Source: Bacteroidales bacterium
Lineage (GTDB): Bacteria; Bacteroidota; Bacteroidia; Bacteroidales; M50B96
Assembly (NCBI GenBank): GCA_021740905.1
Contig: JAIOYV010000055.1
Coordinates: forward strand, 1-45,131
DNA: 45,131 nt
Direction of reading: 5' to 3'
The notes below the pieces were generated by a model. That model saw only the letters and a program-made list of their open reading frames with translations, did not search any database and was not told the origin of the DNA. This document shows, in pieces, positions 61 to 13,512 of this stretch (positions are counted from its first letter, which is position 1; each line of letters starts with the position of its first letter). The translations under genes were made by a program, and so were the position numbers.

Positions 61-170
61 AAAACTTTCAGATGTTTTTGATTATTACCACCTTTTTATC
101 AACCGATTGAATTTTGTCCTATTGCAGAAATTTATCCCGTTTTCAGTATAATTTCATTTATGTTTGTCCT

Positions 171-219
171 ACTGCCAGCTGCCTACTGAGAACTGCCTAC
201 CGTGAACTATCAACTAACC
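171..219. repeat. degenerate heptanucleotide array (minus-strand consensus NNNYAGT)
   Basis: Seven consecutive heptads begin ACTGCCA, GCTGCCT, ACTGAGA, ACTGCCT, ACCGTGA, ACTATCA, ACTAACC. The array overlaps the 3' end of the hybrid kinase gene: its stop codon (210-212) lies in the sixth heptad, so the last residues of the kinase are encoded by the array. Similar 7-bp arrays occur elsewhere in this window next to gene ends. Confidence 0.6.
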
Positions 220-1481
220 GCCGCCAGCTGGTCGGGTTGCAAATGTTTTGATATAGTGTCCTTCAATTTATTTTTATTGATGGGTTTCGATATGTATTCG
301 TCGAAACCGGCAGCCCTTATCCGCGATTCGTCTTCGTTTAGGGCATAAGCCGTTTGTGCGATGAAAGGCGTTTCTGAGTATTCGGGATATTGTTTCTTGA
401 TTTCATGCATGAGCTGTATCCCATTGAATGGACCGGGAATATTAATATCGAACAAGAACAGGTCGAAATATTCTTCTTTCTCCCTGCTTTTTTTTGTAAT
501 TTGAAGACATTCTTCGCTGTCGCTCGCCATGACAAGTATAGCCTTCGATTTTAAAAACTCGAACAAGAGCTGTTGGTTCACCTGGTCGTCCTCTACAATC
601 AGGATTTTTTTCATCCCGGTTATATTTATTTTCGTAACCGTAGGACTTGCATTGTTGCCCTTTGGCTTTTGACCTGCTGCTTCGAGAAATACCCTCACCA
701 CCGTACCTTTGTCTTTTTCCGATTCAACCTCGATACTTCCACCCATCGATTTAATGATACGCCTTGCCAAAGGCAGGCTTAAGCCTGCACCCTGAAAGGA
801 TCGTGTTGTCCCTGTACTTTCCTGGCTATAGGGAGTAAAAATATAAGGCAGGTATTTCTTATCTATTCCTATCCCAGTGTCGGTTACTTCCAGCATAACC
901 ATATCGCGGCTTTGATCGAATGCTGTCCTAATGGTGATTCTTCCCGCCGGGGTGTACTTTATAGCATTCTCAACAAGATCGTAAACAATACGCGAAATGC
1001 TTTTGCTATCAGCCGAAACAAATACATTGTTTTCTAACAATAGTTTTACTTCAAGCTCTTTTAGCACAGCTTTATGGCCCAAGTCTTTTATGCTCTGGTG
1101 TACCGCCTCGTTTATTGGGCAAACCTCGATCGATAGATTCGACTCCTCAGTGTCGAGCCGGTTGTAATCGATAATGTTGTTGAGCAGGTGGAGCAACCTT
1201 TTCGCGCTTACATTGATATTGGAAGCGTACTCATAACTTTTTTTATCGCCTTTTGTTGAGAGGTCGTATTCCAACAATTCGGAAAACCCAATGATCCCAT
1301 TCAACGGGGTGCGCAGTTCGTGGCTGATGTTTGAAAGAAATTCATTCTTAAATTGATTTGTTTTCTTTAATATCTCAATTTCCCTAACAAGCGAACCAAA
1401 CTGTTTTTCTACACTTTCGAGTATTCCATCAGATTGAGCCGTCGCCTTGTTTTCGATATGTACATTGTTCATTTCAAACAT
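210..1481 (-). CDS. soluble hybrid histidine kinase (HisKA-HATPase-REC)
   Basis: A 423-residue two-component protein with no sensor domain and no membrane segment. Residues 30-45 form a short coiled linker. The HisKA box is NISHELRTP with phospho-acceptor His54. The ATP-binding domain has an N box near residues 168-176 (DLVENAIKYT) and a G1 box DTGIGI at 201-206. A C-terminal receiver domain (291-415) carries acidic residues ED 297-298, phospho-acceptor Asp345 and Lys in the SKP motif. The G2 box reads GAGLSLPL instead of the usual GxGLGLA. It starts 2 bp after the stop of the upstream kinase, so the two are very probably co-transcribed. It may serve as a cytoplasmic partner of that membrane kinase; the signal sensed is unknown. 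Confidence 0.92.
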   Translation of the reverse strand: MFEMNNVHIENKATAQSDGILESVEKQFGSLVREIEILKKTNQFKNEFLSNISHELRTPLNGIIGFSELLEYDLSTKGDKKSYEYASNINVSAKRLLHLLNNIIDYNRLDTEESNLSIEVCPINEAVHQSIKDLGHKAVLKELEVKLLLENNVFVSADSKSISRIVYDLVENAIKYTPAGRITIRTAFDQSRDMVMLEVTDTGIGIDKKYLPYIFTPYSQESTGTTRSFQGAGLSLPLARRIIKSMGGSIEVESEKDKGTVVRVFLEAAGQKPKGNNASPTVTKINITGMKKILIVEDDQVNQQLLFEFLKSKAILVMASDSEECLQITKKSREKEEYFDLFLFDINIPGPFNGIQLMHEIKKQYPEYSETPFIAQTAYALNEDESRIRAAGFDEYISKPINKNKLKDTISKHLQPDQLAAVS

Positions 1482-1483
1482 AT

Positions 1484-3124
1484 TTAAGCAGTGATCTTAT
1501 GTAACATAAGTTGATTTACTAATTGATTGTTGATACACTTTATTAAGTCCGTCTTTTTAATTGGTTTCGAAATATAATCGTTGAAGCCTTCATTGAGCAA
1601 TTTCTCTCGGTCACCTTTCATGGCATAAGCTGTTTGGGCAATAAAAGGAGTTTCGGAATACAACTGCCACCGATTTTTTATTTCGTTCATTAGTGTGGTC
1701 CCATCCCAGTCTTGAGGCAGATTAATATCCATGAGGAATAGATCAACCGATTTGTTTTCCGAGTTTAACTTTTCCAATTTCAACAACGCTTCGTTGCCGC
1801 TTTTTGTTACTATAACATGGGCAAATCCAAGAAGATAGGCTTCGATCAGTTCGCCATTTATACTATCATCTTCTATCAGGAAGATTGTTTTTGATTGGCC
1901 CGATTGGCCCGACGACAACGACATTCTCTTTTCACTTAGCAAACGGATAGTTTCGTCATTATAGCTTGTCGCAGGTTTATTCAGATGGATCTTTACCATT
2001 GTCCCTTTTCCTTTTTCAGATTGTATTTCAATTTGTCCCCCCATCATCTCGATCAACTTTTTCGACAATGGCAATGCCAGGCCACCTCCCTCGAAGGAGC
2101 GTGTCATACCTGTGCTTTCTTGGTTGAAGGCTTCGAAAATGCGGTCAATAAACCCTGGTTTAATCCCAATGCCGGAGTCTTCGACACATAGCGTGACATC
2201 GTTGTTACCCACCGGATTCGACAGACTAACTCGCACAAAACCTTCTTCGGTGTACTTTATGGCATTATCGAGAATGTTGCGGATAACCTGTGAAAGGTAC
2301 TTGTAGTTGGCCAGCACTGGCACAAAACCGTCTAATTCGACGATCACATTCAGGGCTTTTTCGTTGGCTACAAAACCAAGGGATGCGATGGTATGTTTAG
2401 TTATTTCCACAAGGTCGCAATGTTCAGTTTTAATGTTCAGCTCCCTGGCCTCGATACGGCTTAGGTCGATTACATTGTTTAAGAAGTTCAAAAGCCTGTC
2501 GCTGCTTGATAATACAATGCGGCTAAAATTTTCGATTTTCGAATTCCCAAGTTTCCTTGCCTCTTCTCCTGTCAGGGTAGTAAAACCTATAATTCCGTTC
2601 AAGGGAGTTCTCACTTCATGACTGATATTCGATAGGAACGCATCCTTCAACGAATTGGCATCTTTCAACGTTTCCAAGGCATTTTTAAGCGACTCTTGAG
2701 ATTGTTTTCGATAGTTTCTCTCAAGCTTAAGTTCGTGGTACGAGTATCTCAATTTTTCTTGCGAATCGGCCAACTCATCACTTATCCTTTTATTTTCTTC
2801 CTTTCTCTTCTTATTGTTTTTTACTAGCCACAAAACAGTCACCAATAGTACCATGATGCCAATTCCACCAAATATATTTAAGGACTTTGCTTGCCTGTAT
2901 TGCTTGCTATTTGGATCCCCTGTTTCAAGTTGGGTATTGTTGCCCAGTGAATTATTTTCGCGGGGCGTGGCTGCGTTCGTGAATAAAGAATTCATGCCTG
3001 CCTCAGAATTGGCTTTAACCATTGTTCTGGGTTTCACTACTTCCTGTTCGTAGATTTTGATTGCCTGGTATCCTACAAAACAGAAAACACCCAAAAGGAC
3101 AATATATTTAAGTAGCTTTATCAT
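1484..3124 (-). CDS. membrane-anchored hybrid histidine kinase (HisKA-HATPase-REC)
   Basis: A 546-residue hybrid kinase with an N-terminal membrane helix (residues 6-22), a poorly conserved 60-residue segment that is probably periplasmic, a second helix (84-101), and a coiled coil (105-160) leading to HisKA with His169 in NISHEVRTP. The HATPase domain (about 270-385) has an N box DNAIKYT and G1 box DSGIGI. The receiver domain (411-535) has Asp466 as likely phospho-acceptor and a C-terminal SKP lysine. It shares close sequence features with the downstream kinase, including an ESTG-TRSF motif and an atypical G2 box (GGGLALPL), so the pair likely arose by duplication. The extracytoplasmic part is too short for a classical sensory domain. 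No DNA-binding output is encoded nearby on this strand. Confidence 0.92.
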   Translation of the reverse strand: MIKLLKYIVLLGVFCFVGYQAIKIYEQEVVKPRTMVKANSEAGMNSLFTNAATPRENNSLGNNTQLETGDPNSKQYRQAKSLNIFGGIGIMVLLVTVLWLVKNNKKRKEENKRISDELADSQEKLRYSYHELKLERNYRKQSQESLKNALETLKDANSLKDAFLSNISHEVRTPLNGIIGFTTLTGEEARKLGNSKIENFSRIVLSSSDRLLNFLNNVIDLSRIEARELNIKTEHCDLVEITKHTIASLGFVANEKALNVIVELDGFVPVLANYKYLSQVIRNILDNAIKYTEEGFVRVSLSNPVGNNDVTLCVEDSGIGIKPGFIDRIFEAFNQESTGMTRSFEGGGLALPLSKKLIEMMGGQIEIQSEKGKGTMVKIHLNKPATSYNDETIRLLSEKRMSLSSGQSGQSKTIFLIEDDSINGELIEAYLLGFAHVIVTKSGNEALLKLEKLNSENKSVDLFLMDINLPQDWDGTTLMNEIKNRWQLYSETPFIAQTAYAMKGDREKLLNEGFNDYISKPIKKTDLIKCINNQLVNQLMLHKITA

Positions 3125-4130
3125 ATTTCGTCGATCTAATATTTATATTCACCAAAAACTTATCCATTACCGTCTTTTTATTGTATCGTAACTCTCATCC
3201 AATTATTATTGTGGTCGAAGCTGGAAAATTTCCTTTTGTCTCAGAAAAAGTGTCATTAACACTATAAAAGAATTTGTTGGTCAAGAAAAAACAACGATTT
3301 GTCATTATTGCTGCAAAGGAGCTTGAAATGGCCTTTTTCCACTGCTTTTTAATGTCCGATGTTCTATTTGTTATCATTTCCAGTCTTATTTTCTTTTCGA
3401 ATCGAAATTTTCATCCTGAACACTGAACCCACTTACAACTAATGTTTTAAGAGCTAATGTTGGATTAAATTTCTTCATTATTTTTCACCTTTTTTCATTG
3501 TTTCGCAATTCGGCAATTATATACGGAAAATGTGCATAATAGTTTACTGTCGCCCTTTTTGCAGTACTATAAAAACATTGATTTTGGTAAAACGAATAGC
3601 ATAATTTGGCCTCAGGTTTCTGTGGAAAAAAAACATAGGAAACGTAAAAAAACAAGATTGGCAATCAATGTTAATAGCTCTCCGTTTATTTATAGATAAG
3701 GCCCCATAGCACCAATGGTGCGTAATCAATATACAAAATGGATACTCCTCATTTGATATTCATAAGATTACTTTATTATTGGGGCTAAGATCATTTTATG
3801 CAATCATATACCCAGGGCTACAATCGCCTTTGTTGATGCGTTCACCCTGGACTAGTGATTTCGCCCACGTCGGGGCTTGTATTAGGTAATTATGAAACAT
3901 GGATTCGTAATATTTATCAGTGCATAATTCAAATAAAAAATACACGATTTTAAGAATATTATTTCCAGCACCTCAAATAGAGATTTAGCCTTATATCCAT
4001 GCTTATTCCTACAGAAGCTGAAAACAAAAATTTGTGAATTATTCAACCCAGGAAGGCACCTCGAAAATTAAAATGATAAAAAATGAGAATACCGGAAACA
4101 CAATTTGTCTCTGGTATTGCCCCCACATTA
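3125..4130. other. 1-kb non-coding gap
   Basis: No convincing gene is seen on either strand. The short open frames lack coding character and ribosome binding sites. The only structure noticed is a degenerate hairpin-type repeat at 3781-3876. The gap separates two minus-strand transcription units, so it should hold the promoter of the kinase pair, but no clear TAnnTTTG element could be assigned. Confidence 0.6.
3781..3876. repeat. degenerate intergenic hairpin repeat
   Basis: GGGGCTAAGA at 3781, CCCAGGG at 3811 pairing with CCCTGG at 3845, and a closing GTCGGGGCT near 3868-3876 form an imperfect hairpin-rich unit. The same GGGGCTAAGA string is in the gap near 39021, beside another strong hairpin, suggesting two worn copies of one dispersed intergenic element. 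Confidence 0.35.
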
Positions 4131-5981
4131 CTAATTTACCACCATTTTAGCCGAATACGTTTGTGATTGGTTATAAAGCTTTATCATATAAATACCAGGT
4201 TTCAGCCCATCTGCATTAAATGTTGAATTATTATAGAATGGATACTCCTCCCTTAGCTGTTTTCCATATTCATCAAATACTTGTAAGTACAATGGTTCAT
4301 TGCTCCTATTGGGGATGGATAGCTTTGTGCTTTCGTGCACAGGATTTGGAAATATAGTTAAACCATCCTGGTTCTCATTTTCAAGTTTGGGTGCTTCATC
4401 GTCAAATAACACAATACTCGTAATTTCAATCTGAAAAGTATCGGCACAAGAATGATAGCCATTTGAAATAAAGGCATATATATACTCCGATTGAGAAGCA
4501 GTATAGGTCATTGGGTTGTTTGTTTCGCCATTCGACCAGAGCACTTCGAGGTTCTGTGTGTTATTTAATAAATCAACCTCAAGCTGAATGCTTTGACCTG
4601 GATCAGCTGTAAAATAATAAGTAGGGATTTCATAGTCGATAAAGGAAACAAATAGACTATCGCGGCTCCAGTTGCCTATGGTATCGTATTGATCGACATA
4701 ATACATGCCAGTTGATTCCACCTCAACAATCTTATCGGAACTTGCCGTATTCCACACAAATTGGGTGGCATCGACCAATACCTCGTGGTAATTGATCTCA
4801 AATTGATAGAAATCGGCCTGTTCGAGCCCTCCTGGCTTATGATACGATTCGATAAATACAATCAAATAATTATTATCTGCTTTCTTGGTTACAATAGGAT
4901 AACCATAAAACATGTGATAATTTGGGAAAGGCCTTTCGAATGAATAAAACAGTTGAAAACCGCTGGGATTGTAAAAAACATCTTCAACTTTATTTTTGTA
5001 AATCCATGCCGACGACTGAAAGGCATAATATGGATCGCCAAGATAATTTCTTCTGTCGGTGGCAACTACCCATAAATCTTCGTGTTCTTCATCATAAAAT
5101 AGCATAGGTGCTGCACAAAAGAAAGGGGCGGCTATATTAGTATGCACAGGTTGTGTCCAGGTAAGCCCATAGTCTTCGGAAGTTACGAGATAAAGGGTTG
5201 CGTCCATTCCAGGAGCACCATCGCGCATAAGGCCTATCAACCTTCCATTGCCGAGATATTCAAAATAGCTTTCGTTTATTGCATAGCTACTATATAAATA
5301 ATCCCACCTGTATCCATTTTGAGGCCAATCGATCCCATTGGTCGAAAATCTAACTTCGACAAAAGAAAGACTATATACAACAGCCATAAATCCACGGGTG
5401 GGTACAGGAACAATTTTGTGAGGACTAAAACACGCACCAGGAGAGGCATTGAAATAGTAAACAGGCGACCATGTATTGCCACCATCTATACTGACTATAT
5501 AGTTCAAACTAACTGTAATACTAAAGTCGGCATTGTATTTTCTAAAAAACACCACTATAGAGTCAACACCGATCAATCCGCCGGCAACATTCCTGTCGTC
5601 ATAAAGTGGGTCGTTATAAACCAGTACAGGAGCCGACCAGGTTTGACCATTGTCGGTGCTTATTCTTTTGGCAAGGAATGAATTATTGCCAACATGGTGC
5701 CCTTCCAGTCCGGGATCGAGCCTGAAAATATGAACAATATCCCCATTCTGAAGAGTTACCATGATCCCGGCGGCAGTATGATCATCCGAACATAGCGACG
5801 AGTCTAAATTTTCTAGTGAAGGAGAGATGAAACTAAACTGTTTGTCAGCCGAAATGCTTACCGTGCCTTCATTACATAGGAACAAAGAATCGTTTGAGTT
5901 AACCGAATAGCACGTACTTTGTGCATTCAACGACACGCATCCCAAAAGAACAATAATAATCTGTAGTAGAATTTTTCCCAT
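4131..5981 (-). CDS. secreted sialidase-like BNR-repeat protein with T9SS sorting domain
   Basis: The start at 5981 gives a 616-residue protein with a clear signal peptide (MGKILLQIIIVLL, then an AQS cleavage region); an upstream in-frame start at 6035 would put 18 charged residues before it and is less likely. The first ~350 residues form a predicted beta-propeller with Asp-box motifs of the S-x-D-x-G-x-T-W kind (STDNGQTWS, SIDGGNTWS, and TSEDYGLTW), as in sialidases and related exo-glycosidases. The catalytic arginine triad of true sialidases cannot be confirmed by eye, so activity on sialic acid is not claimed. An Ig-like stretch follows, and the last ~75 residues, starting with IFPNPV, are a type A Por sorting domain. 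The protein is probably surface-attached or released through T9SS. Confidence 0.85.
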   Translation of the reverse strand: MGKILLQIIIVLLGCVSLNAQSTCYSVNSNDSLFLCNEGTVSISADKQFSFISPSLENLDSSLCSDDHTAAGIMVTLQNGDIVHIFRLDPGLEGHHVGNNSFLAKRISTDNGQTWSAPVLVYNDPLYDDRNVAGGLIGVDSIVVFFRKYNADFSITVSLNYIVSIDGGNTWSPVYYFNASPGACFSPHKIVPVPTRGFMAVVYSLSFVEVRFSTNGIDWPQNGYRWDYLYSSYAINESYFEYLGNGRLIGLMRDGAPGMDATLYLVTSEDYGLTWTQPVHTNIAAPFFCAAPMLFYDEEHEDLWVVATDRRNYLGDPYYAFQSSAWIYKNKVEDVFYNPSGFQLFYSFERPFPNYHMFYGYPIVTKKADNNYLIVFIESYHKPGGLEQADFYQFEINYHEVLVDATQFVWNTASSDKIVEVESTGMYYVDQYDTIGNWSRDSLFVSFIDYEIPTYYFTADPGQSIQLEVDLLNNTQNLEVLWSNGETNNPMTYTASQSEYIYAFISNGYHSCADTFQIEITSIVLFDDEAPKLENENQDGLTIFPNPVHESTKLSIPNRSNEPLYLQVFDEYGKQLREEYPFYNNSTFNADGLKPGIYMIKLYNQSQTYSAKMVVN

Positions 5982-6268
5982 AGCTCTTTTTAGTTTCAAT
6001 ATTTGATGTAAAATTGGATATCTTTTAAAAGTCAAAAATTAAAAAGAGATTAAAAAGAGATTAAAATTTGAGACCACTTCAAAACGGCCCGCAAGAATAA
6101 CTGCCACAAAAAACAAAACGGCATTGCAATTTATAAAGGACTTAATATCTATGATTTAATCAATATATTTTCTTCAAAACTTTATGCATTTGTAGCTAAA
6201 ACCGACTGTTTCGAATAGGCTCAGATTAACATCTTTCAAAGGATATGCTTTTGCATCTCCAAAATCAG

Positions 6269-6276
6269 TAAATTTG
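6269..6276 (+). promoter_or_regulatory. candidate -7 element TAAATTTG
   Basis: TAAATTTG matches the Bacteroidota -7 consensus TAnnTTTG and lies 31 bp before the response regulator start. A TTTG at 6250-6253 could act as the -33 element, but the 15-bp spacing is shorter than the usual 19-21. Confidence 0.35.
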
Positions 6277-6307
6277 GACAGAAGTATTATGAACACAATC
6301 TCTTTCG

Positions 6308-6985
6308 ATGAAAGTATTAGTGGTAGAAGATGAACCCAAAGTTTCGGCATTTATCAAACAAGGGTTGGAAGAACATGGTTATGAAGTAGACATTGCTTAT
6401 GATGGCTCAATTGGGGAGCGCATGGCTTTAAAAGGGAACTACAACATTATTTTACTGGATGTAATTATTCCGTATCAGAATGGGATTGAACTTTGCAAAA
6501 AAATTAGGGCGGAAGATAACGAAGTGCCTATTTTAATGTTATCGGCCTTGGGCACCACTGATGATAAACTCATTGGATTCGATGTAGGGGTTGATGACTA
6601 TTTGGTGAAGCCTTTCAATTTTTCTGAGTTATTGGCACGTATCAAGGCACTTACAAAAAGGGGGCGGGGGATTTCTCAAAAAGCAAACACGCTTCAGGTT
6701 GCCAATCTTCAATTAAGCATCGAGAATAAAGAAGCAATTAGGGACAACAAGAAAATCGATTTGACGGCGAAGGAATTTAGTTTGCTTGAATACCTCATGC
6801 GTAATCAAGGAAAAGTATTAACAAGGATGGAGATTGCAGAGAATGTGTGGGACATAAAATTTGACACAGGCACAAATGTGGTTGACGTTTATATAAACAT
6901 CCTCCGAAAAAAAATAGACAAAGACTTCGATCCAAAGCTTATCAAAACACGGATCGGTATGGGCTATGTGATATCAGACACCTAA
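6308..6985 (+). CDS. OmpR/PhoB-family response regulator
   Basis: A 225-residue regulator of normal family length. The receiver domain (1-115) has acidic residues ED 7-8, phospho-acceptor Asp51 in LLDVIIP and Lys in VKPF near residue 101. The C-terminal winged-helix DNA-binding domain (about 128-222) ends in the typical GMGYVI turn. It is followed after 2 bp by a sensor kinase, so the two form a standard two-gene operon. It resembles the CusR/CopR branch seen next to metal-efflux genes, but no metal transporter is present here, so the target genes are not evident. Confidence 0.94.
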   Translation: MKVLVVEDEPKVSAFIKQGLEEHGYEVDIAYDGSIGERMALKGNYNIILLDVIIPYQNGIELCKKIRAEDNEVPILMLSALGTTDDKLIGFDVGVDDYLVKPFNFSELLARIKALTKRGRGISQKANTLQVANLQLSIENKEAIRDNKKIDLTAKEFSLLEYLMRNQGKVLTRMEIAENVWDIKFDTGTNVVDVYINILRKKIDKDFDPKLIKTRIGMGYVISDT

Positions 6986-6987
6986 CT

Positions 6988-8358
6988 ATGGAAATAAAAC
7001 AAAGGCTCTCCTATCAGTTTACAGGGATCGTTGCTATCATCCTGGTTGTTTCATTGCTCGCAATTTACTTTTCATTTGCTAAATTCCGCTCCGACGATTT
7101 TAACTCAAGACTTTCGGAAAAAGCCAGGTATATTATCCATCTCTTGGTTGAAATTGAAGAAATAGATGCTGACCTAATTGGAAAGATCGAGTTAAACAGC
7201 CCATCGAGCCTGCCCGACGAAAAGTTGACAATTTATGATTTGGCCAACAACCGGATTTTTGATAACGATGAGGACAACTCCATAACAATTGATCCTCAGC
7301 ATATAGCAAGCCTTAAGGAATCGAAAGAACTTCGATTTGAGCAGGAGCCTTACGAAGTATATGGGTACTATTATGAAATGGCCGATGACAGTGTGGTCAT
7401 TTTTGTAGCAGCCCACGATATTTTTGGTTATAGGAAGTTGAAAACACTTCGCATTATTTTGCTTATCGTTTTTTCTTTTGGGCTTGTTTTGGTGTATTTT
7501 TCAGGAAAATGGTTTGCCAGTAAAGCATTAGCACCCATTTCAAGGGTTATTAAACAGGCCAGTAGAATTAGCGGAAGCAACCTAAGCAGCCGTTTGGACG
7601 AAGGGAACAAGAAAGATGAAATAGCCAAACTTGCCATTACTTTCAACGAAATGTTGAGCCGGATCGAAGCGGCTTTTGTTACGCAAAAAAGCTTTATCTC
7701 AAATGCGTCCCATGAGCTTCGCAACCCGCTTACTTCAATTACTGGTCAACTCGAAGTTTTATTAATAAAGGACAGAAGCGTTGATGCCTACAAAAAATCG
7801 ATCGAATCGATCCTCGAAGATATCCGCAATGTCAACCAGATTTCGGATAAACTATTGATGTTGGCGCGTACAAGCAGCAAACTAACCGAATATGTTTTTT
7901 TAGATCTCAGGATTGATGATTTGGTGTGGAAATCTGTATCGGTATTCGAAAAACAAAAACCTGAATATGTAATCAAGGTTGAATTTGGAAACGATTTTAA
8001 AGACGACACCCAATTCATAATAAAAGGAAATGAATTTTTACTTATTTCTTCAATTAGCAACCTAATTGAAAATGGCTGCAAATATTCAGATAACAAAGAA
8101 GTTGTAATTCAGTTTTCAGCTATCGAAAAGAACATTGTACTTGACTTTATCGATCAAGGAATTGGCATACCGGATGTGGATAAGGATAAGATTTTCGAAC
8201 CTTTTTTCCGTGCTGGCAATGCAAAAGAATATTCCGGACATGGTATTGGATTATCCATTGTACAGAAAATAATCCAACTTCATCATGGCAAGATTACGAT
8301 TGATTCAAAAGTGAATAGGGGTACAAAAATCAGCATTTCATTGCCATTGAGGAGTTAG
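6988..8358 (+). CDS. membrane sensor histidine kinase paired with the upstream regulator
   Basis: A 456-residue classical kinase. TM1 spans residues 11-30, an extracytoplasmic sensor region of about 125 residues follows, and TM2 spans 154-172. A HAMP domain (175-228) leads to HisKA with His242 in NASHELRNP and an HATPase domain with N box (LIENGCKYS), G1 box DQGIGIP and a canonical G2 box GHGIGLSI near the C-terminus. The start codon is 3 bp after the regulator's last codon. The periplasmic domain is rich in acidic residues and has no recognised ligand motif. The pair likely controls genes elsewhere, as its neighbours are unrelated metabolic genes. Confidence 0.94.
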   Translation: MEIKQRLSYQFTGIVAIILVVSLLAIYFSFAKFRSDDFNSRLSEKARYIIHLLVEIEEIDADLIGKIELNSPSSLPDEKLTIYDLANNRIFDNDEDNSITIDPQHIASLKESKELRFEQEPYEVYGYYYEMADDSVVIFVAAHDIFGYRKLKTLRIILLIVFSFGLVLVYFSGKWFASKALAPISRVIKQASRISGSNLSSRLDEGNKKDEIAKLAITFNEMLSRIEAAFVTQKSFISNASHELRNPLTSITGQLEVLLIKDRSVDAYKKSIESILEDIRNVNQISDKLLMLARTSSKLTEYVFLDLRIDDLVWKSVSVFEKQKPEYVIKVEFGNDFKDDTQFIIKGNEFLLISSISNLIENGCKYSDNKEVVIQFSAIEKNIVLDFIDQGIGIPDVDKDKIFEPFFRAGNAKEYSGHGIGLSIVQKIIQLHHGKITIDSKVNRGTKISISLPLRS

Positions 8359-8513
8359 GAAGAGGTATGTGACTGTTTTGAAACAGATTTGAAAACGGAC
8401 AGAAAGGGGTAGAATCTTTTCCACATCCTCAAAATCAGATTTAGCCCTTTTTTCTTAGTTTAGCAGAACTTTTTCAGCTAGTATTTATTTCTATTGAATA
8501 AAACACATGTGAG

Positions 8514-9509
8514 ATGAACAGTTTTGGCAGATTATTCCGGGTAAGTATTTTTGGCGAATCGCATGGAAAAACAATCGGTGTGGTGATGGATGGTTGCCCG
8601 GCAGGCATTCCACTTTCGGTGGATGATTTTTCAGCAGACTTGTCGCGTCGCAAGCCAGGGGCAAAAGGTACTACCGCCCGGCACGAGGCGGATATGCCTG
8701 AGATCAATTCAGGAATTTTCAAAGGTAAAACAAGCGGTGCGCCCATCGTTATTCAATTCAGCAATAAGGATGTGATTTCCAAAGATTATGAAAAGTTGAC
8801 AGCGACTCCCCGTCCGGGACATGCCGATTTTGTGGCCATGAAAAAGTTTGGGGGCTATGCAGATCTTACTGGAGGTGGCCATTTCTCGGGTAGGCTTACA
8901 TTGGCTTTAGTGGCCGCTGGGGTGATTGCAAAAAAGATGATCGACCCCATCCAAATTTCAGCAGAAATTGTTGAAGCCGGAGGAAGCAAGGACATTGAAG
9001 AAGCAGTTGCACAAGCTGTCGAAAACCAGGATTCAATTGGCGGGATTGTGGAATGTCAGGCCACAAATATGCCTCTAGGGCTGGGCGAACCTTTTTTCGA
9101 TTCGGTGGAATCAATAATTAGTCACATTGTGTTTGCCATTCCTGCCATAAAAGGGATCGAGTTTGGCTCAGGTTTCAAGGCTGCCGTAATGGTTGGCTCG
9201 CAACATAACGATGCAATTGTCGATGTTTCAGGAAAAACCGCTTCGAACCATGCAGGCGGTATCAACGGCGGCATCAGCAATGGAAACCCCCTGGTTTTTA
9301 GGGTGGCTGTGAAACCCACCAGCAGCATCGGCAAAACGCAGCAAACCATCAACCTAAAAAATGAACAGGTCGGGGAACTGAAAATCGAAGGCCGCCACGA
9401 TGCCTGTATTGCCCTTCGTGTGCCTGTGGTGATTGAGGCAGCCACTGCCATCGCCCTTGCCGACCTCTGCCTCATTGATCAACAGCAAAAACGAATCATT
9501 CATCAATAA
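8514..9509 (+). CDS. aroC: chorismate synthase
   Basis: Catalyses the last step of the shikimate pathway, 5-enolpyruvylshikimate-3-phosphate to chorismate, using reduced FMN. The 331-residue product has the N-terminal signature FGESHG with the conserved His17, the RPGHAD motif and a C-terminal HDACIALRVP segment matching the family's HDxC..R motif. It is about 25 residues shorter than typical bacterial enzymes, and the central glycine-rich motif is GGGHFSGRLT rather than GGGRSSARET, a variant I associate with a short anaerobe-type AroC group. No other shikimate gene lies next to it. The next gene begins 7 bp after the stop, suggesting co-transcription. Confidence 0.95.
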   Translation: MNSFGRLFRVSIFGESHGKTIGVVMDGCPAGIPLSVDDFSADLSRRKPGAKGTTARHEADMPEINSGIFKGKTSGAPIVIQFSNKDVISKDYEKLTATPRPGHADFVAMKKFGGYADLTGGGHFSGRLTLALVAAGVIAKKMIDPIQISAEIVEAGGSKDIEEAVAQAVENQDSIGGIVECQATNMPLGLGEPFFDSVESIISHIVFAIPAIKGIEFGSGFKAAVMVGSQHNDAIVDVSGKTASNHAGGINGGISNGNPLVFRVAVKPTSSIGKTQQTINLKNEQVGELKIEGRHDACIALRVPVVIEAATAIALADLCLIDQQQKRIIHQ

Positions 9510-9516
9510 CAATATC

Positions 9517-10320
9517 ATGACAAAATTGGAAGGCAACATCCTGAAAATGCGTACGGAATTTAATACGCCCATAAACTATTTCTTATCCCTTGGAGCCGAT
9601 GAAATCTATCTGAATGAACTTTTGGGAAAGACCATCAATTTGTCGTACCGGCATCAGATCAATTGTATCCACTGCGGAAGAAAAACCAAAACTTCCTTTG
9701 CGCAGGGCTATTGCTACCCTTGTTTCCAAACATTGCCAGAAACCGATGCATGTGTTTTAAGGCCGGAAATGTGTGAAGCCCACCTCGGGATTTCCCGCAA
9801 CCAGGCTTGGGCAGAGGAGCATTGCCTCCAAGACCATTATGTTTACCTCGCCCTGTCAAGTGCCCTGAAAGTTGGCGTTACCCGGCATACCCAAGTTCCA
9901 ACCCGCTGGATCGACCAGGGGGCATGGAAAGCAATAAAGTTGGCAAGGACTCCCAACCGCAACCTTGCCGGTCAAATTGAAGTGTTCCTAAAAGACCACC
10001 TCACCGACAAAACCAACTGGCGGCACATGCTCATGAACACTCTAGCCGAAGATGTGAGTCTTGTTTCTGAAAAGGAAAGAATAGGATCGCTATTGCCTGA
10101 TGTGTTTCAGGATTACTACGAAGAAGATGATGAAATTACGGAATTGGTTTACCCCGTAAATGAGTATCCCCAAAAAGTGAAAAGTTTTGGCTTCGACAAG
10201 CAAGCGGATTTTGAAGGTGTACTTACAGGTATTAAAGGTCAGTACCTTCTTTTCGAGGGAGGCTATGTAATTAATATTAGAAAACATGGGGGGTATTTGG
10301 TTGAGTTAAGTTGGGAGTAG
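9517..10320 (+). CDS. DUF2797 family protein, zinc-binding with GIY-YIG-like segment
   Basis: Choosing the ATG at 9517 gives 267 residues and avoids overlap with aroC; an earlier in-frame start would lie inside that gene. The N-terminal half holds cysteines in C50-x2-C53 and C66-x2-C69, plus Cys79 and Cys86, consistent with a zinc ribbon. The following region has the order Y-V-Y-L-A, K-V-G-V-T-R, R-W-I-D-Q-G-A and an E in AGQIEVFL, which resembles the layout of GIY-YIG nucleases (two tyrosines, K-x-G-x-T/S, R and a late Glu). The family is uncharacterised, so nuclease activity is inference. Its position 7 bp after aroC suggests a shared transcript rather than a functional link. Confidence 0.85.
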   Translation: MTKLEGNILKMRTEFNTPINYFLSLGADEIYLNELLGKTINLSYRHQINCIHCGRKTKTSFAQGYCYPCFQTLPETDACVLRPEMCEAHLGISRNQAWAEEHCLQDHYVYLALSSALKVGVTRHTQVPTRWIDQGAWKAIKLARTPNRNLAGQIEVFLKDHLTDKTNWRHMLMNTLAEDVSLVSEKERIGSLLPDVFQDYYEEDDEITELVYPVNEYPQKVKSFGFDKQADFEGVLTGIKGQYLLFEGGYVINIRKHGGYLVELSWE

Positions 10321-10414
10321 AAGGCACATGATTTTTAATACCAAGTATTTGTAGTTAGATGTCAGTTCATTTCAGGCAACATGTTTTCTTATGATTCTAT
10401 GTAACTATTTTATT

Positions 10415-10422
10415 TAATTTTG
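10415..10422 (+). promoter_or_regulatory. candidate -7 element TAATTTTG
   Basis: TAATTTTG matches TAnnTTTG and lies 28 bp before the KAP gene's ATG, giving a short leader. No good -33 TTTG is seen. It suggests the KAP gene has its own promoter separate from aroC-DUF2797. Confidence 0.35.
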
Positions 10423-10450
10423 AATTTCCACAAAACAATTATTTTTGATT

Positions 10451-12655
10451 ATGGAGCAAAATTACGAAGGCGAAATTTCTGAAAGGCCTGAAGAAAGGAC
10501 ACCTCTGGCTCAGGTTAGGTTTCAGGATGTAATCATCAATCTCGATTTTGATGATAACCCGGAGGATTATTTTAATCTTATTCTACCAATTGGTGAAGAC
10601 GGAGGTATAATTCTCTATCAAAATCTTTTAACCAATTTTATTGAAGATAGTCAATTATTTAAAGCTTTAAAGAATAGCTATGCTGATCTGAATAAACAAG
10701 GATTTCGGTGGAATACTGTCGGGACATTTAGTGATACTCCGACTGGTTTTCTCAATCTTTGTTTTATTCAAACTTATGAAAAAAATGACAGAAAGATTGA
10801 AAATCTTAGAGTTGCACTTCTGAATCAAGATTATTCCAAATCGCCTTTGGAATTCTGGATTCCAGTGTTTGGCTTTAGTTTACATGAAGATATGCTACAT
10901 AAAACGCTATCCGGTTTGATTGAAGTGATAAAGTCATCAGTTCAACAAAGTTATGTGAAATACGGCGAATCAACTTTTTCATTAGTAATTCCCAAAAGTA
11001 TTTCAAATATAAAAACCAAAGAAATCATCAACACCTTTGAAGCAGAATTCGCAAAACCACTCGAAGAAACAGTGAATCAGGAAGAATTCTCCCAAACCAA
11101 AAAAACAGGGCCAAAAATAGCAAGCACGCCGCCCCCCGCCGACCAAGTCCCCACCCACTACGACAAAGCAGAAAAACAAGACCGACTCAACCGGAAACCT
11201 TTGGCCCGCTCTCTCGCTACATTGATAAAAAGGATTTGGGACGAAGGGAAGAAATCGAAAGAATATGGTGAATCATTTATGGTGCATGTGCAAGGCCAGT
11301 GGGGTTCGGGGAAATCGACATTTCTTAATCTTTTCAGGGATGAATTGAATAGCACTCAAAAGTGGATCATCATTGACTATAATGCATGGCAAAACCAACA
11401 CATCAGCCCTCCCTGGTGGACATTCTTATCGAGTGTGTACAAGCAAGCTCGAAAACAACTTGGAATCGGAGGCAAGTTTAAATTATGGCTATCCGAAAAC
11501 TGGCGCAGGTTTTGGATCGGGAACACGGTATCACAGGTTACTTCAATTATTATACTTGCCTTTACCTTGGTCATGGTGTATAAGTTTTTACCAATCATTT
11601 TCCCTGAAACCTCCGATCCCATTAAATCGGATCCTGAGAAATACCTGATTACCCTGACGACCCTAACGGGAGTTGTACTGACCCTCATTTCCTTTTCAAA
11701 AACCCTGAGCAGTTCGCTTTTGCCGGGTTCTGTAAAAACTGCCCTGTCTTTTATCGCCCTGTCGAAAGACCCCATGCTGAAAGTGAAAAAGCATTTCAGC
11801 AAACTGATTGGTTCAATTGACCAACCCGTAGCAATTTTTATCGACGATCTTGACCGGTGCAACCCTAAATTTACGGTGGAGTTCCTCGAAGGGATCCAGA
11901 CCCTTTTCCGTGAGACTAAGGTGCTTTACCTTGTGGCTGCCGACCGGAAATGGCTAGCCAAATGCTTCGAGATTCACTATAAAGACTTCACCGATGACTT
12001 TGATAAAAGGGGCAGTCGTTTAGGCTATTTGTTCATTCATAAGGCTTTTCAATTGTCGCTTCGGATGCCCATGCTGAGTGCCGACCAGAAAGAAAAATAC
12101 TGGGAATTCATCCTTCACCTAAAAAAAGAAGATAAATCGCTTGATGATAAAAAAGCAGAAATGGCCAAAGAATTCGAGGGTTTGACAAGCCGCATGGATG
12201 TGGAACAAAAAGCGCAGGATTTGGAAAACCAAAAAATTGTTCCCGAAGAACTAATCCGGGAGGCGGCAATTGGAAAATTATCGGAACAAAATATAGCTGG
12301 ACAAACCGAGCATATCCTTCACAAACATGCCGTATATCTCGAACCCAATCCACGGGCCATTAAACGCCTGGCCAACTTTTACAACATATTCAGCTATACC
12401 ATGATTTTGGAAGGCCGCTACATCGACGAATCGGTTATTGTGCGCTGGTTGGTGCTGAGCCAGCGCTGGCCCATTCTTGCCGAAGCCCTGGAAAAATCTC
12501 CCGGCCTGATTAATAGTCTGATTCTTTCTGAGGACAAAGAAATTCAGGAATTAGTAAATGACAACGACCTGCAACATATCCTCAACGGAGCCAATGGCGA
12601 TTTGCCACTTTCAGAAATGGATATTAACCATCTTATCGGGAAACATAATTTATGA
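10451..12655 (+). CDS. KAP-family P-loop NTPase with two membrane helices and novel N-terminal domain
   Basis: A 734-residue protein; the ATG at 10451 is preferred over a TTG two codons earlier. Residues 20-200 form an alpha/beta domain not recognised with certainty (see findings). A proline- and lysine-rich linker follows to ~245. The KAP NTPase core has Walker A GQWGSGKST at about 282-290 and Walker B AIFIDDLDR near 461-469. Two hydrophobic helices (about 361-384 and 397-416) are inserted between the Walker motifs, the hallmark of membrane KAP NTPases, where the nucleotide domain faces the cytoplasm. The C-terminal third is helical. Some KAP NTPases act in phage defence or membrane signalling. 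Base composition shifts at ~11.1 kb, with the N-terminal part clearly more AT-rich, which suggests domain acquisition. Confidence 0.9.
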   Translation: MEQNYEGEISERPEERTPLAQVRFQDVIINLDFDDNPEDYFNLILPIGEDGGIILYQNLLTNFIEDSQLFKALKNSYADLNKQGFRWNTVGTFSDTPTGFLNLCFIQTYEKNDRKIENLRVALLNQDYSKSPLEFWIPVFGFSLHEDMLHKTLSGLIEVIKSSVQQSYVKYGESTFSLVIPKSISNIKTKEIINTFEAEFAKPLEETVNQEEFSQTKKTGPKIASTPPPADQVPTHYDKAEKQDRLNRKPLARSLATLIKRIWDEGKKSKEYGESFMVHVQGQWGSGKSTFLNLFRDELNSTQKWIIIDYNAWQNQHISPPWWTFLSSVYKQARKQLGIGGKFKLWLSENWRRFWIGNTVSQVTSIIILAFTLVMVYKFLPIIFPETSDPIKSDPEKYLITLTTLTGVVLTLISFSKTLSSSLLPGSVKTALSFIALSKDPMLKVKKHFSKLIGSIDQPVAIFIDDLDRCNPKFTVEFLEGIQTLFRETKVLYLVAADRKWLAKCFEIHYKDFTDDFDKRGSRLGYLFIHKAFQLSLRMPMLSADQKEKYWEFILHLKKEDKSLDDKKAEMAKEFEGLTSRMDVEQKAQDLENQKIVPEELIREAAIGKLSEQNIAGQTEHILHKHAVYLEPNPRAIKRLANFYNIFSYTMILEGRYIDESVIVRWLVLSQRWPILAEALEKSPGLINSLILSEDKEIQELVNDNDLQHILNGANGDLPLSEMDINHLIGKHNL

Positions 12656-12718
12656 AGTCTGATTGTTCACCAAAATTAATATCTTTGGTTGTCAATCGAA
12701 AAATGGAGTTCTTGAAAT

Positions 12719-12907
12719 ATGAAAAAAGAAAATGTACAGTACGATGAATTCGATGAAGAAGGTGAAGAGCAACTTGCTGTTTTGATAAAGGAAGCTGGGA
12801 TGGACGCTCGCAGGAAAAAGCATATTGCAATGACTCGTCACATAGAAAAGCTTAGGGATGCTGCAGAAGAAGCTATATCTCGAAATAGAAGTTCTTTACC
12901 AGCATGA
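12719..12907 (+). CDS. small antitoxin-like protein preceding zeta-like toxin
   Basis: A 62-residue acidic then basic helical protein whose stop overlaps the next start by four bases (ATGA at 12904-12907), a standard coupling for toxin-antitoxin pairs. No DNA-binding fold is recognisable. The position directly before a zeta-toxin-like kinase, the size and the predicted helical content are what support an antitoxin role. It is not similar by eye to classical epsilon antitoxin. It appears intact although its partner is broken. Confidence 0.6.
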   Translation: MKKENVQYDEFDEEGEEQLAVLIKEAGMDARRKKHIAMTRHIEKLRDAAEEAISRNRSSLPA

Positions 12908-13512
12908 AAGATACAAAAAAGCCCAGGCTGATTATTGTGGCAGGTCCAAATGGTGCTGGGAAAACTACCATCACAGAAAAACTATTGCGACACGAATGGA
13001 TGGATGGTTGCGTTTATATTAACCCAGATGTTATAGCACAGCAAGAGTTTGGTGACTGGAATTCTTCGGAAGCTGTAATAAAAGCGGCTAATAAAGCTAA
13101 AGAAATGCGTGAAACTTGTCTTGATAAATTGACAAGTATGGCTTTCGAAACAGTATTCTAAACCCAGGAAAAGTTGGATTTTGCCCAAAGAGCAATAGCT
13201 AAAGGTTTTTTTGTCCGTTTGTTTTTCGTTTGTACTGATGATCCATCTATTAATGTACAAAGAGTTGCTTTACGAGTCATGGAAAGTGGGCATGATGTTC
13301 CAATCCCCAAAATTATAAGTCGCTATTATCGTTCGATTATAAATTGTATGGAAGCTGTGAAGTTTGTGAATCGCGTTTATTTGTATGACAATACGAAAGA
13401 CGACACGGACCCAATACTCTTAATACGAATAGCTAATGGCAATATCGTTAAGTCATATAAAGAAAATACTATCTGGTCGAAAGATATTATAAGATCAATT
13501 CAACATAGTTAA
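12904..13512 (+). pseudogene. zeta-toxin-like P-loop kinase inactivated by an internal stop
   Basis: The frame encodes a small zeta-family kinase of about 202 codons: Walker A GPNGAGKTT near the N-terminus, the INPDVIA motif typical of the family, and a C-terminal half with SGHDVPIPKIISRYYRS and VYLYDN. A single TAA at 13159-13161 interrupts it after FETVF; relatives of this family usually have Ser-Thr at this spot, so a TCA-to-TAA change is the simplest explanation. The frame stays fully open on both sides, with no other lesion, so the event is recent or a base-calling error. Zeta kinases phosphorylate UDP-N-acetylglucosamine and block wall synthesis; the truncated 85-residue product keeps Walker A but lacks the rest. 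Confidence 0.85.

Follow-up and report, generated by a model that had tools for sequence, protein, structure and literature searches.

A KAP NTPase with a probable diverged macro-like N-terminal regulator and a putative defence function

KAP NTPases recur in phage defence, with QatA and PifA as examples, and the KAP gene described here raises the question of what the additional module in front of its NTPase is, how it got there and what it might do. The gene lies in what we call the window, the whole stretch of 45,131 nucleotides that was analysed, and its features are collected in Table 1. In a Pfam search the protein matched PF07693 with 109.2 bits against a cut-off of 20 (E 3e-31), and its predicted topology has the layout of a KAP protein, with hydrophobic segments inserted between Walker A and Walker B. 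Among PADLOC profiles it matched QatA, PDC-S20 and PifA, and a second copy of the gene was not found in the window's own genome at E up to 0.001. Upstream, TAATTTTG at 10415-10422, 28 bases before the start codon, fits TAnnTTTG, presumably the Bacteroidota -7 promoter consensus.

Table 1. Position of the KAP gene and its features in the window
Feature	Position	Strand	Details
KAP NTPase gene	10451..12655	+	ATG at 10451 to stop at 12655 (stop included); 734 aa; PF07693
Macro-like N-terminal domain	10523..11050	+	residues about 25-200; hhalign, hmmsearch; AT-rich
FWIPVFGFSLHED, at the macro loop 2 position, most glycines lost	10853..10891	+	begins at residue 135; aligned with xWIPLMGTGxGxL of relatives
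Linker, composition switch	11051..11158	+	residues 201-236; GC3 of codons 206-236 is 0.55
KAP P-loop NTPase domain	11252..12394	+	residues 268-648; Pfam
Walker A, GQWGSGKST	11294..11320	+	starts at residue 282
Predicted membrane helix 1	11546..11602	+	residues 366-384, between Walker A and B; Kyte-Doolittle 2.47, the maximum of the whole protein
Second, weaker hydrophobic segment	11642..11698	+	residues 398-416; Kyte-Doolittle 1.71
Walker B, FIDDLDRC	11837..11860	+	starts at residue 463

Composition and surroundings of the KAP gene

The DNA encoding the N-terminal part differs in composition from that encoding the NTPase. Codons 1-205 have a GC content of 0.338 and a GC3 of 0.268, compared with 0.438 and 0.496 for codons 237-734 (Fisher p 2.6e-8 for the GC3 contrast), which confirms the AT-rich N-terminus that an earlier note on this DNA had described, including its boundary near 11.1 kb; the break coincides with the linker, at about 11.05-11.16 kb. 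The GC3 of the first 205 codons minus that of the rest of the gene is -0.231, while the largest difference for a 205-codon block in 14 further genes, each 400 codons or longer and delimited by us from the window's list of open reading frames, is 0.133. Five macro-like KAP relatives (described below) were also checked, and the GC content of their N-terminal and KAP parts, whose boundaries are approximate, differs by at most 0.017.

The KAP gene looks accessory. A neighbouring gene, which we take to be aroC-like, is adjacent to the DUF2797 gene in all three same-family genomes. No KAP gene appears after DUF2797 within the sequence covered there, which extends for about 2.3 kb, 6.4 kb and 0.1 kb. 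Across the whole of these three genomes, a match to the KAP gene was likewise absent at E up to 0.001. The window's genome measures 6.54 Mb and the three other sampled genomes of the family 1.9-3.3 Mb, one of these being 60% complete. Downstream of the KAP gene, 12719-13512 holds a small open reading frame and then a zeta-toxin-like gene. An in-frame stop after residue 85 splits the latter into pieces at 12904-13161 (PF06414, E 1e-7) and 13174-13512; the GC3 of these small genes is 0.27-0.30, as low as that of the KAP N-terminus.

Such flanking genes suggest that the whole accessory stretch may tend towards AT, in which case the AT-rich N-terminus and the GC break could have arisen through relaxed codon use within an old fusion and not through acquisition of a module. 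We consider this unlikely, since the NTPase part has a GC3 of 0.50 although it sits between two AT-rich stretches, the break falls at the linker, and N-termini vary among the relatives. The composition break and the different N-termini carried by the same KAP subfamily together support the proposal, already made in the earlier note, that a module was acquired onto a KAP engine, and fusion of the N-terminal ~200 residues to KAP by recombination is the best explanation.

N-termini within the KAP subfamily

A scan of genome_contigs (84,980 species) with a KAP profile gave at least 472 relatives, of which the best 80 were kept. Thirty-five of these (L034-L068) form a close subfamily, with 22-36% identity across that part of the NTPase which was aligned. 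One of them (L065) is cut off; N-termini were extracted from the other 34, and 30 of these were scanned for families (L039, L047, L061 and L063 were left out). Fourteen of the 30 had a Pfam match at E up to 0.01, and within this sample from the best 80 of at least 472 relatives the families differ: pentapeptide (L037, L067), WD40 (L044, L046, the former with an additional TIR_2 match below cut-off), NB-ARC (L054-L056), a caspase fused to the same KAP subfamily (L058, Peptidase_C14, E 1.7e-9), PG_binding_1 (L042 and L048, the latter also with EVE), MrcB_N (L062), DUF5648 (L041), AAA_22 (L066) and a weak P-loop match (L059). Since the Pfam families at these N-termini differ, the KAP engine appears to be the constant part and the front end the variable one. 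A uniform N-terminus across KAP orthologues, which the earlier note had named as an observation that would speak against acquisition, was looked for and not found. The shared engine with differing front ends also means that the trigger can be tested by module swaps.

Outside this set, two KAP proteins of the window's order (L006, L007) have an N-terminus that looks LRR-like by eye. In L041, a gene for a patatin-like phospholipase (3587-4606) lies directly upstream of the KAP gene.

Macro-like modules and the N-terminus of the window protein

Seven KAP proteins have a macro-like N-terminus (L043, L049, L136, L137, L095, L069 and L104); L136, a KAP protein of a Rhizobium plasmid, was the sole plasmid find. 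From six of them (L136, L069, L095, L137, L043 and L049) we built a profile, A5, that excludes the window. Pfam Macro was the top match, below its cut-off, in three of these six (E 0.0066 for L136, 0.0022 for L069 and 0.018 for L095); it gave no match to L137, L043 or L049 at E up to 10, nor to L104 at E up to 0.01. At the position of FWIPVFGFSLHED, L043 and L049 carry xW(I/M)PLMGTGxGxL. When A5 was run against 131 genomes of L069's order, 12 matches were obtained at E up to 0.01, namely L069's own locus, the LRR proteins L146 and L147, and nine short ones (E 1.2e-5 to 0.006). Eight of these nine were scanned, and all eight matched Pfam Macro with E values between 2e-14 and 7e-23. The domain of L069 alone matched the solved structure 2dx6_A (E 3.9e-4), which is listed as a hypothetical protein and which we take to be a macro domain, and L069 matched the DarG profile of PADLOC (E 1.4e-6). 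On these matches we regard the module of the relatives as a macro-superfamily domain.

Other searches returned less. In 128 genomes of L095's order A5 found only L095 itself, the domain of L069 had no match in plasmids, and a profile that includes the window (A4) gave no macro match among solved structures. The profile A3 yielded five matches in 385 genomes, comprising L043's own locus, L137 and L138-L140, and the last three, which are weak (E 0.007-0.009), were dropped. Chance matches to a single motif do occur, since a four-member profile scored a 139-residue frame of L140 at E 3.5e-4 among preselected loci. In the LRR proteins L146 and L147, which gave no Pfam Macro match at E up to 0.001, the macro-like module stands at or near the N-terminus; L147 also has a Roc domain, and the segment after the module in L146 resembles by eye that of the macro-KAP L069, suggesting a shared cassette.

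For the window protein itself, a direct family search with residues 1-228 (PADLOC, NCBIfam, Pfam, PDB) returned nothing usable, and residues 29-200 had no Pfam Macro match at E up to 10, which leaves them below the PF01661 cut-off. The top Pfam row, Chromadorea_ALT (E 0.035 to 0.26), was below cut-off and was discarded. The TIR-like and SAVED families, which the earlier note had put forward for comparison, gave no match to the N-terminus among PADLOC, NCBIfam and Pfam profiles. Against A5, in contrast to 300 shuffled sequences, of which the best reached 8.1%, the window scored 64.9% in hhalign (P 6e-5), and all 32 subfamily N-termini that are not members scored at most 2.5%; L104, which likewise has no loop, scored 87.3% against the six-member profile. 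In hmmsearch the window obtained 4.7 bits with the six-member profile, with none of 2000 shuffles higher, and 9.6 bits with an eight-member profile, with none of 5000 as high; with a nine-member profile, 2 of 5000 shuffles equalled its score. The hhalign value drops to 17.5% with the eight-member profile, for which 200 shuffles stayed at or below 1.8%. Searched among 5670 open reading frames, the four-member profile did not list the window at E up to 5, and the eight-member profile listed its whole frame at E 1.4 with 7.0 bits, level with an unrelated frame of L014 at 6.9 bits.

It could be argued from these last values, insignificant as they are in the database, and from the missing direct family match that the N-terminus represents an orphan alpha/beta domain of separate origin whose macro likeness reflects convergence around one hydrophobic strand and helix. 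Homologues of the N-terminus were indeed absent from 395 genomes of the phylum, from plasmids and phages, and from a pattern scan of genome_contigs that detects close relatives only, and 295 genomes of the order contained none beyond the window save one weak match in G175, within a frame that we take to be RNase R-like, which was dropped. We nevertheless find convergence somewhat unlikely: none of the 300 shuffles and none of the 32 other KAP N-termini came near the window's hhalign score, the N-terminus occupies the same place in the same kind of protein as the macro-like modules, and it shares eight invariant columns of an alignment with hand-chosen trimming (A8), including W, P and G of WIPxxG. 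We read the relation of the window N-terminus to the macro-like modules as remote yet real, and its homology to the relatives' module as statistically supported and less than certain. Our slight preference is for a diverged relative of the macro superfamily that recombination joined, as a regulatory module, to a KAP NTPase inserted in the membrane. The weak guess of a macro-like domain in the earlier note thus proves largely right, with support through the relatives and, modestly, for the window protein itself, in which the glycine loop is degenerate.

A search of 286 genomes from the window's order brought up no further macro-like KAP beyond a single weak match (E 0.07). Used alone, the domain of L069 retrieved neither L095's KAP nor, with E up to 10, anything from the window's genome. 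Viral contigs contained KAP relatives only, with nothing for the whole protein alone or for the N-terminus.

Structure models were of low confidence. A single-sequence AlphaFold model of the N-terminus (pLDDT 36) has strands at 25-32, 40-47, 101-109 and 116-125 and helices at 68-82, 146-167 and 187-200; the alternation of strands and helices claimed in the earlier note thus appears in models of low confidence only (pLDDT 36 and 44). The second of these models had L095, L043 and L049 in its alignment (pLDDT 44, pTM 0.44), and it is not independent of the macro hypothesis, as the four-sequence alignment was picked among trimmed variants by the line-up of three motifs; L069 was left out because variants that included it lined up less well, and L136 and L137 were absent. 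In Foldseek this model placed macro domain 3 of PARP14 first at a non-significant E of 0.15, with entries named macro at ranks 1, 3, 6 and 7 and RABL3 at ranks 4 and 5, and none of the 50 rows listed for the single-sequence model was named macro. VIA-align 2, which covered model residues 106-177 (129-200 of the protein) only, did not separate macro chains (Z at most 4.0) from others (best 5.1).

A tree of the KAP part was built from 42 rows by a quick method and has long branches (L054, L063 and L065 were left out). Seven macro-like KAPs, counted with the window and without L104, need five state changes on it, a number that was as low in 23 of 500 shuffles, and at least three of the five rest on well-supported branches. 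The tree separates the window from the other macro-like KAPs and pairs its KAP part, on a long branch, with L041 (SH-aLRT 93), a protein without a macro-like N-terminus. Module and KAP may have come together on more than one occasion, and losses are also possible.

Possible ligand, working and known systems

In macro domains the glycine-rich loop 2 binds phosphate. Most relatives have MGTGxGxL at this position, where the window protein has FGFSLHED, so its loop 2 is not glycine-rich; GxGxG is present in eight of the nine relatives aligned and absent from L104. Binding of ADP-ribose by the window module is doubtful. With loop 2 degenerate, an ADP-ribose-type cue is no more likely than some other ligand or a partner protein. 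A role as ADP-ribosyl hydrolase also seems unlikely given the degenerate loop. The domain might even have lost nucleotide binding altogether and serve only as a surface for interaction or oligomerisation, to which we give a sizeable minority chance: GFSLHED stands in place of GTGxG, L104 also lacks GTGxG, and no TIR_2 protein able to make an ADP-ribose signal was found in the window's genome at E up to 0.001. Against this, signal-making enzymes are not all covered by the one TIR model used (PF13676), and completeness of the genome is 97%.

Taken together, the window protein is probably a membrane KAP engine that carries a diverged, macro-like regulator as a plug-in, with a putative defence function. 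We infer for it a course of sensing, gating, membrane attack and defence. The KAP part would be the constant engine, in front of which the module differs among relatives, and the N-terminal module would hold this engine off until a cue is bound, for macro domains usually an ADP-ribose-type nucleotide or an ADP-ribosylated protein. Binding would then lead to NTP-driven assembly at the membrane, which would harm the infected cell or block the phage. A far-reaching version of this proposal has one constant membrane KAP core serving WD40 (with a TIR-like domain), caspase, NB-ARC, EVE, pentapeptide and macro-like receptors, with the window's receptor being of the macro type and detecting, at the membrane itself and with no need of a second protein as effector, a phage-induced signal derived from or related to ADP-ribose; we regard it as unlikely in this full form.

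A defence role of the window KAP is plausible, as judged from the family profiles that it matches (QatA, PDC-S20, PifA) and from the neighbourhood of one relative. In that relative, L104, the stretch 71-13064 encodes HEPN_Apea, HNH, a DACNV sensor, Fic (SoFic) and AEP-TOTE/helicase neighbours, several of them below the Pfam cut-off, and its macro-KAP gene sits inside a dense defence-like island. The patatin gene beside the KAP gene of L041 adds to this context. Within the window, no known defence partner was identified.

The window KAP resembles QatA and PifA in its PF07693 match above cut-off, its Walker A and B motifs, the hydrophobic segments between them and its PADLOC matches. It differs from QatA in scoring 89.9 bits with the equivalog model, whose cut-off is 600, from the qat operon in that the window neighbours examined are aroC-like, DUF2797 and a zeta-like pair, and from both proteins in carrying an extra N-terminal module. 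Passages of one study describe QatA, the KAP protein of a defence operon, as binding DNA, seemingly forming heptamers or octamers and being dispensable for part of defence (PMC13279940). A second likeness, that of an NTPase with swappable modules, is to STAND/NLR-like conflict proteins, and the passages concerned name KAP as a substitute NTPase for STAND (PMC8195603, PMC10907252) and mention macro domains in other architectures (PMC8195603); a macro-KAP fusion is not given in these passages, and no description of one was found in the open-licence papers searched. With Macro domains (PF01661, DarG type), the modules of the relatives share matches to the Macro and DarG profiles, and the second half of the window's low-confidence models shares a strand-helix-strand-helix layout; unlike them, the window module is below any threshold and has no glycine loop. 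In its presumed working, the protein is most like the TM-macro ThsA of Thoeris, which passages of PMC11204291 describe as a membrane effector with a macro sensor domain, with the differences that the window's engine is a KAP NTPase and that no TIR_2 (PF13676) protein was found in its genome. If the macro-like front end is true, it would link KAP engines with the ADP-ribose signalling that has already been demonstrated in Thoeris.
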